Source: Actinomycetales bacterium
GTDB taxonomy: Bacteria > Actinomycetota > Actinomycetes > Actinomycetales > Microbacteriaceae
DNA length: 64,000 bases
Direction of reading: 5' to 3'
Assembly: GCA_017308515.1 (NCBI GenBank)
Contig: JAFKEN010000005.1
Location: 248,001 to 312,000, forward strand
The notes beneath the pieces are model-generated. The model saw nothing but the letters and a program-made list of their open reading frames with translations. It had not been told where the DNA came from and searched no databases. A program made the position numbers and the translations under genes. Shown in pieces: positions 10,311-10,667 of this stretch; the stretch's first letter is position 1; each line of letters starts with the position of its first letter.

Positions 10311-10382
10311 GGAGTCTTCGGCTGACGTGGTCAGCGCGGGAGACGGATGAGTGCGGTGTCTCGCGGAGTCAGGCGACGCTGC

Positions 10383-10463
10383 CTACTGGCAGCTCTCGCA
10401 CTGGAGGTCGTCCATGGGGTCGACCGGGACCGCGTAGCCACCGACGGTGTCGACATCGTTCAT
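10383..10463 (-). CDS. 26-residue peptide with C-terminal CESCQ, function unknown
   Basis: A short gene with a strong ribosome-binding site (AAGGAGG, 6 nt before ATG). The peptide starts MNDVDTVGGYAVPVDPM and ends DDLQCESCQ. It is acidic and has two Cys as CxxC at the extreme C-terminus. It has its own sigma-70-like promoter, a palindromic operator and a strong terminator, so it is a monocistronic regulated unit and not a by-product of a neighbour. I do not recognise the family. Options are a RiPP or signalling-peptide precursor, a metal- or redox-binding small protein, or a leader peptide, although no gene in the same unit follows it. Confidence 0.65.
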   Translation of the reverse strand: MNDVDTVGGYAVPVDPMDDLQCESCQ

Positions 10464-10539
10464 GAGTGCCTCCTTCAGTCGGTTGCGCCCGATCCGAGCG
10501 ATCGGGCCGCGGTTCGGAAGCGATTCCCGCCCCGCGTGG

Positions 10540-10579
10540 GTCCTCACTATATAACGGGAATCACAGTCGTGTCATTCCC
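10540..10579 (-). promoter_or_regulatory. Promoter and palindromic operator of the small peptide gene
   Basis: On the minus strand an ATGACA -35 element is followed after 16-18 nt by TATATA/TATAGT, a notably AT-rich -10 for this genome. The inverted repeat GGGAATnACA-N4-TGTnATTCCC (10556-10579) covers the -35 box and the spacer, an ideal place for a repressor. The leader to the ATG is about 75 nt. Confidence 0.6.
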
Positions 10580-10667
10580 CTACATGTTGTGGTTCGGCGT
10601 GTCGCGCGCCGGATCCCATTCTCCCCCGAACCGCCGACATCCGCCGGCCGTCGACCACCCGCGTCCG

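Follow-up and report, generated by a model that had tools for sequence, protein, structure and literature searches.

In class I ribonucleotide reductase (RNR), the active-site disulfide that forms with each turnover is reduced again by a flexible tail carrying a cysteine pair; thioredoxin, glutaredoxin or NrdH then restores the tail. RNR is essential, and how the tail recycles its active site is difficult to investigate in an arm that is both disordered and joined to the enzyme.

The nearest precedent for the peptide described here is the separate nrdJb of class II RNR. In the split NrdJa+NrdJb of Pseudomonas aeruginosa, as in our case, the reducing cysteine part sits on a gene of its own (PMC5704485). 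The two systems differ in that NrdJa+NrdJb is class II and our peptide class I, and NrdJb is described as a separately folded Cys-rich domain whereas our tail is a short linear peptide; the available part of that source tells of no stand-alone paralogues or phage copies of nrdJb (PMC5704485). We rejected an NrdJb-type split class II system, with its folded Cys-rich domain and B12-dependent partner, as an identity for the locus: the product has 26 aa and two Cys, and its partner is NrdA-type and lies beside nrdB. The split nrdA of phages such as Aeh1 likewise encodes a class I alpha in two pieces, but the available text attributes those splits mostly to introns, inteins or homing endonucleases, not to a detached tail (PMC3653736). 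A full-text literature search, with most subscription journals outside it, listed no paper that, judged by its title or the opening of its abstract, deals with a separate class I RNR tail peptide.

Here we analyze a 64,000-nucleotide stretch of a Microbacteriaceae genome, called the window throughout (GCA_017308515.1, contig JAFKEN010000005.1, positions 248,001 to 312,000). We propose, at a probability of about 0.86, that a small gene in it codes for a free peptide equivalent to the C-terminal redox tail of class I NrdA, and that this peptide acts in trans on NrdA.

Results

The window encodes a 26-aa peptide with a promoter-like site of its own. Translation of the minus-strand ORF at 10463–10383 (stop included) gives MNDVDTVGGYAVPVDPMDDLQCESCQ, and translation, homologues and conservation together mark it as a putative stand-alone RNR redox-tail gene. 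We assigned its start to the ATG that follows the ribosome-binding site AAGGAGG (10469–10475, minus strand) by 5 nt, rather than to the upstream GTG that opens a 54-aa frame in the ORF list. A preliminary description of this DNA had pointed to AAGGAGG, present at 10475–10469, and to a near-consensus promoter; the latter, ATGACA-18-TATAGT at 10575–10546, is the only promoter-like site between 9400 and 11600 (mean 0.0, sd 0.1 in shuffles). A 24-bp imperfect inverted repeat, GGGAATCACAGTCGTGTCATTCCC, at 10556–10579 (no strand assigned) contains the −35-like ATGACA (10570–10575). A second repeat, in the 5′ UTR at 10487–10507, is by eye not preserved in the upstream sequences of relatives and for that reason was not taken as an operator. 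A terminator-like hairpin lies 3′ of the gene at 10311–10280 on the minus strand (−34.5 kcal/mol, z −5.7; 0 of 200 shuffles equally good). It had been described as a 13-bp terminator; the hairpin is there, with a 14-bp stem, a 4-nt loop and no T run or U tract, and a terminator scan did not include it in its output.

The neighbors are two MaoC-like dehydratase genes, and another adjoining ORF we take to be an ABC-transporter permease. A leader peptide, which the preliminary description had considered not obvious, is rejected in view of the hairpin and 127 nt that precede the next gene and of homologues that stand alone. The peptide had no family match in NCBIfam and Pfam even at E 10, and an Rfam scan of the window gave nothing at gathering score.

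Conservation marks the ORF as a true gene. Across 65 distinct stand-alone homologues, pN/pS for the final 19 codons is 0.114, and in that stretch the copy in the one same-genus genome carries 7 nucleotide and 0 amino-acid differences. The frame is conserved in close relatives, whereas the preliminary description had named lack of such conservation as grounds for refutation. Its view of a genuine stand-alone small gene is borne out; the gene is probably regulated. Conservation and the ribosome-binding sites suggest that the peptide is translated. Its C-terminal block is the most conserved part: an alignment of 28 tails shows no variation at P13, D15, P16, M17, C22, S24, C25 and Q26, placing a CxxC beside the C-terminus as in the redox tail of RNR alpha. 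Tail copies outside this alignment carry CDGC or CEAC. The window's genome holds a second copy, 83% identical over residues 4–26. At E up to 1 the peptide matches 38 of 99 genomes, its own included. With the limit set at 1e-3, half of the same-family genomes (30/60) still match, each at 1 to 6 places; two further family genomes have chance-level matches (E 0.5 and 0.9) and were left out of the counts. Four genomes of other families match at E 0.06–0.8, and one of these (G081) turned out to carry a fused tail.

Sequence comparison shows homology between the peptide and the CxxC redox tail that, in its fused form, ends class I RNR alpha (NrdA). Two genomes from another family of the order have the peptide block as the C-terminus of NrdA, directly before nrdB. 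Profile searches at E up to 0.01, own genome included, matched 25 of 394 genomes class-wide and 26 of 297 order-wide, and at 41 of the 46 loci read from them the block ends a frame carrying the NrdA YY motif. L304 is fused judging by the tree, and L326 and L327 are weak partial profile matches. The block is the in-frame NrdA C-terminus in Demequina, Actinotalea, Cellulomonas, Nocardioides and further lineages outside Microbacteriaceae. Free and fused forms share the terminal block V-x-G-x-x-C/V-P-x-D-P-M-E/D-x-L-Q-C-E/D-S-C-Q and the same end. Unlike the fused tails of Demequina and Cellulomonas, the product of the window gene is a free short peptide; host peptides have V or some other residue where the fused block (ACPVDP) has its first Cys, and the linker is mostly gone. 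Two of the 46 loci stand somewhat apart. In L313 (G310, another family) a tail frame of 64 residues immediately precedes an nrdB-like one and may come from a broken fused NrdA, and L317 (G423, a family genome) has a short tail-like match in a prophage-like region.

This homology also bears on earlier guesses at function. A RiPP or signaling-peptide precursor would account for a short product with its own promoter and cysteines near the C-terminus. Against it, the C-terminus is invariant and the C-terminal block the most conserved part, unlike a variable RiPP core; the adjacent genes (MaoC-like and, by our reading, an ABC permease) have no role in modification or export; and the peptide is clearly homologous to the NrdA tail, with fused homologues that contradict a precursor. 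We rejected that guess, whose likelihood is negligible. The companion guess of a metal- or redox-active protein holds in its second half: a redox-active product probably fits, with a CxxC homologous to that of the NrdA redox tail.

Genomes that carry the peptide encode an NrdA that lacks the tail. The window's genome (G000) has one PF02867 protein, in a search that would miss class III RNR. This NrdA, of 829 aa, ends in ARRGFGGL with no cysteine, and the second tail copy starts 7 nt past its stop codon, ahead of nrdB. The absence of a tail is easily overlooked, since the match to the NCBI alpha model NF005101 spans almost this entire protein (residues 1–816 of 829). The protein is alignable to solved RNRs across the active-site cysteines. 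C248, C462 and C477, which we take to be those cysteines, are invariant in 16 fused and detached NrdAs.

Peptide and tail-less NrdA occur together across the family. Among 60 same-family genomes, own included, all 30 peptide-positive ones have an NrdA without a cysteine tail, and all 30 peptide-negative ones have an alpha ending in CVSC-M/A/T-L, which we read as class Ib NrdE (NrdE-like). Fisher's test on this split gives 1.7e-17, a value that overstates independence because the 30-versus-30 division follows phylogeny; genome counts are non-independent samples throughout. No Cys follows the YY motif in 65 of 66 distinct tail-less NrdA ends. The exception is the peptide-positive G010, in which the nrdA stop is lost and the frame continues without a CxxC end. 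All 66 ends contain a K/R-G-F-G/A motif, 65 of them within the last 35 residues (for example L035, from G000), and a similar motif occurs in 51 of 51 fused NrdAs. This motif is a candidate docking site for the free tail; a structure prediction of fused NrdA had a mean pLDDT of 45, was not used and gives docking no support. The partner alpha has the cysteines that we take to be the active-site ones and no tail of its own. The peptide is not covalently part of alpha: the genes are separate, and the only detected copy is unlinked in G016 and G053. For that reason we say that it works like the redox tail, as a detached form.

A single change accounts for the detached state. On a tree of 85 NrdA rows (51 detached and 34 fused, one long-branched phage row possibly misplaced), fused versus detached is a single change (support 99/93; 98% of bootstraps), giving the detached state a single origin in the Microbacteriaceae lineage. 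The direction, from fused to detached, we infer from the wider spread of the fused form. A named-organism survey, by degenerate-pattern scan of species genomes, found at least 119 loci. Among those listed, 51 are stand-alone with NrdR boxes, 40 lie between nrdA and nrdB, 13 are alone without boxes (one, L354, cut by a contig end), 13 are fused and 2 are accompanied by nrdB only; of this last pair, L408 (Demequina) is probably a fused gene that has been cut. Detached tails among the listed Microbacteriaceae loci occur in Leifsonia, Clavibacter, Cryobacterium, Salinibacterium, Aurantimicrobium and Schumannella. Some labels look doubtful: L374, a metagenome bin labeled Cellulomonadaceae, has an NrdA that groups among family rows, and the labels of L379 and L400, bins assigned to Acidobacteria, do not fit.

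One tail gene usually sits inside the reductase operon. It lies between nrdA and nrdB in 28 of 30 positive genomes; in G016 and G053, judged from one assembly each and with one short peptide as query, the nrdA–nrdB intergenic stretch read has no tail and the only detected tail is elsewhere. A tail lies within 250 bp of the nrdA end in 61 of 66 ends read, overlapping the nrdA stop in 44, beginning 0–16 nt past it in 16 and at 18 nt in one. The other five are G010, with its lost stop; G046, whose tail falls outside the search pattern; G053 and G016; and one phage, in which the tail lies upstream. This layout bears on a rival account in which programmed frameshifting or readthrough fuses the tail to NrdA in nrdA-tail-nrdB operons, leaving stand-alone copies accessory. 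Relative to nrdA the tail is indeed in the −1 frame in 52 of 61 operons, and in 47 that frame stays open as far back as the last GFG codon, but the bias arises because tail start codons overlap the nrdA stop, which accounts for 44 of 61. In 14 of 61 the tail frame is closed by a stop that falls after the last GFG codon and ahead of the tail, which excludes a frameshift fusion there; G016 and G053 lack any linked tail that a shift could reach. We rejected such fusion as very unlikely.

Tail copies are often multiple, with up to 6 peptide matches in one genome; in G013 (82% complete) a stand-alone copy was not found. Dosage alone is an insufficient explanation for keeping several copies. Extra copies in L032, L036, L040, L065 and L474 (a Leifsonia plasmid) lie in apparent plasmids or integrated elements. 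Genes for single-strand-binding protein lie near the tail in L032 and L474, and L032, L036 and L040 have a similar upstream stretch in common, by eye.

The promoter of the window gene carries a pair of NrdR-type boxes. Box 2 (TCCCGTTATATAGTGA, 10544–10559, minus strand) overlaps the −10 TATAGT (10546–10551) and scores 11 of 16; box 1 (CCACAACATGTAGGGG, 10577–10592, minus strand) lies 17 bp from it and scores 10 of 16, against a 16-position consensus and with a threshold of our choice. Their total of 21 compares with at most 14 in 20 shuffles of the region. The 2.85-Mb genome, which encodes NrdR, has exactly two such double boxes, before nrdA and before the window gene, and 0 in the reversed control. 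The 24-bp inverted repeat had been proposed as the operator. The repeat stands, and the operator is likely wider than proposed, with the two boxes flanking and overlapping it. Published NrdR sites, as far as the available parts of the sources go, are two 16-bp boxes overlapping RNR gene promoters (PMC12051234, PMC9110341), and Streptomyces NrdR binds best at 15–17 bp spacing (PMC12051234). The window gene has the same arrangement over its promoter, with a 17-bp spacer; it differs from the NrdR regulon of those accounts in that targets here include a micro-gene with no RNR gene adjoining (PMC12051234, PMC9110341).

The box pair recurs in relatives. Two NrdR-type boxes with a 16–17 bp spacer lie upstream of 29 of 42 unlinked copies, one in each of 29 of 30 genomes, at a pair cut-off of 20 out of 32. 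Since single-base shuffles, 20 per copy, score up to 19, the weakest pairs lie close to the limit. The remaining 13 unlinked copies have no NrdR boxes, and nrdA promoters carry the same pair. The inverted repeat occupies the spacer between the boxes, where TGACA recurs in 60 of 65 stand-alone promoters and the right half is less strict. This AATGACA...TGTCATT palindrome may serve as a second operator or may simply reflect the −35 region. It is generally not seen in the nrdA spacers examined; L083 has TGACA.

Further upstream lies a degenerate PafBC-type promoter. The site, TGTCGGCG-N8-GAGAAT at 10618–10639 on the minus strand, begins 47 nt before box 1 and has one mismatch per element. The mycobacterial DNA-damage consensus is given, in the part of the source available, as tTGTCRgtg-8-TannnT (PMC5656591). 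Degenerate in the window, the mycobacterial PafBC consensus TGTCRGTG-N8-TANNNT is intact in 27 of 75 stand-alone promoters and falls 42–49 nt before box 1 in 24 of 75 (chance fraction 0.0 in shuffled copies). It also occurs in 7 of 23 nrdA promoters, mostly across the NrdR spacer. The window's genome has 3 exact matches versus 0 reversed, one of them just ahead of uvrA. Loci with an intact PafBC-type promoter ahead of box 1 include L004, L009-L014, L019, L022, L025, L028 and L052.

Plasmids and phages carry the tail as well. By tblastn the peptide is found in 19 plasmid records (15 Clavibacter, 3 Leifsonia, 1 Gryllotalpicola), and three matches viewed in context have no annotated RNR gene within 0.8 kb. 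It is also found in 6 phage records of 4 phages, CMP1, CN1A, phiPsal1 and Pan2, at E-values (0.01–0.3) that are weak because the query is short. Read out, the matches in all four phages are short frames with the CxxC tail at the end, and in 5 of 6 records no annotated feature lies under the match. The Pan2 tail is the most divergent of the four and, unlike host peptides, retains ACP. In the Pan2 record (L076, ON968453.1, Pseudanabaena phage) the tail-like peptide MDDFDTIDGFACPNDPADLVSCESCQ is annotated as hypothetical; the host is given as a cyanobacterium, a label that may be wrong. Searches with NrdA against plasmids and phages (tblastn) were uninformative, each best place lying below 60% identity.

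Viral contigs widen this picture. A viral scan found tail-only genes in at least 120 contigs; among the matches listed, the frame that holds the tail is unjoined to NrdA in 120 of 120 and never exceeds 209 residues, one such frame being cut by a contig end. The stretch examined around the tail contains an nrdA match in 1 and an nrdB match in 4 of the contigs listed. PF02867 was found in 1 of 31 records searched whole (the 4 phages and 27 contigs of at least 120, mostly longer ones), and contigs may be fragments. A script picked, as upstream neighbor, the longest same-strand ORF ending just upstream for 111 of the 120 contigs listed: among these matches, 35 neighbors match a terminase large-subunit family and smaller numbers match holin or endolysin families. 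Among the matches listed, 56 of 114 downstream ORFs were scanned, giving 12 portal, 4 RNR small-subunit and 2 thioredoxin-domain family hits. Individual contigs vary. L230 has a tail gene just before a tail-less nrdA, plus nrdB, and its NrdA, at 1120 aa longer than the host's, perhaps contains an intein. L242 and L268 have the tail directly ahead of nrdB and no PF02867 on the contig. L260 and L274 have a tail gene followed directly by a PF00462 glutaredoxin-family gene.

Discussion

We infer peptide binding, electron transfer, control by NrdR and PafBC, and benefit to phages from these comparative data. On this reading, NrdA lost its tail in one lineage, Microbacteriaceae, and the tail persists as a peptide of roughly 20–35 residues. 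Like the attached tail of other lineages, this peptide would pass electrons received from a redoxin on to the disulfide in the NrdA active site. One copy is usually coupled between nrdA and nrdB. The window copy is a second, unlinked gene whose promoter, with NrdR-type boxes like those before nrdA, would raise tail supply when dNTPs run low; at high dATP, NrdR would repress nrdA-tail-nrdB and the stand-alone tail together. In many relatives tail supply is probably raised after DNA damage too. A stand-alone copy would let the tail exceed NrdA, as a diffusible arm probably requires.

A free peptide could instead bind the old tail site of NrdA as an inhibitor or competitor, with a redoxin or small thiol reducing NrdA directly. 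Such a regulator would suit the number of free copies, which can exceed that of RNR genes (up to 6 peptide matches per genome), and a stand-alone copy under its own promoter. It sits poorly with the fact that the two cysteines, S24 and Q26 never vary across the 28-tail alignment and with the overlap of tail gene and nrdA stop in 44 of 61 operons. Phages, moreover, carry the tail although they need dNTPs, and an inhibitor would be unexpected next to a phage nrdB or redoxin. We consider a regulatory role improbable and favor the redox tail acting in trans.

With less confidence than in that function, we think it fairly likely that the recycling arm of this class I RNR has become a diffusible micro-peptide, shared and separately regulated, and that phages and plasmids carry the tail alone to speed host dNTP synthesis. 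With a length of only some 80 bp, such a gene would cost a phage little and boost host RNR, the simplest explanation for the phage and plasmid copies. The tail would then be a very small putative auxiliary metabolic gene, of a kind that tends to go unannotated.

The detached tail also offers an experimental opening. Arm and enzyme are naturally apart here and can therefore be mixed, titrated and labeled, making the tail-recycling question directly testable. If our reading is right, what was an intramolecular arm has become, in one lineage, a reagent that is shared and regulated on its own, and phages and plasmids that have the tail alone, without a reductase, would carry a minimal gene that speeds host dNTP synthesis.
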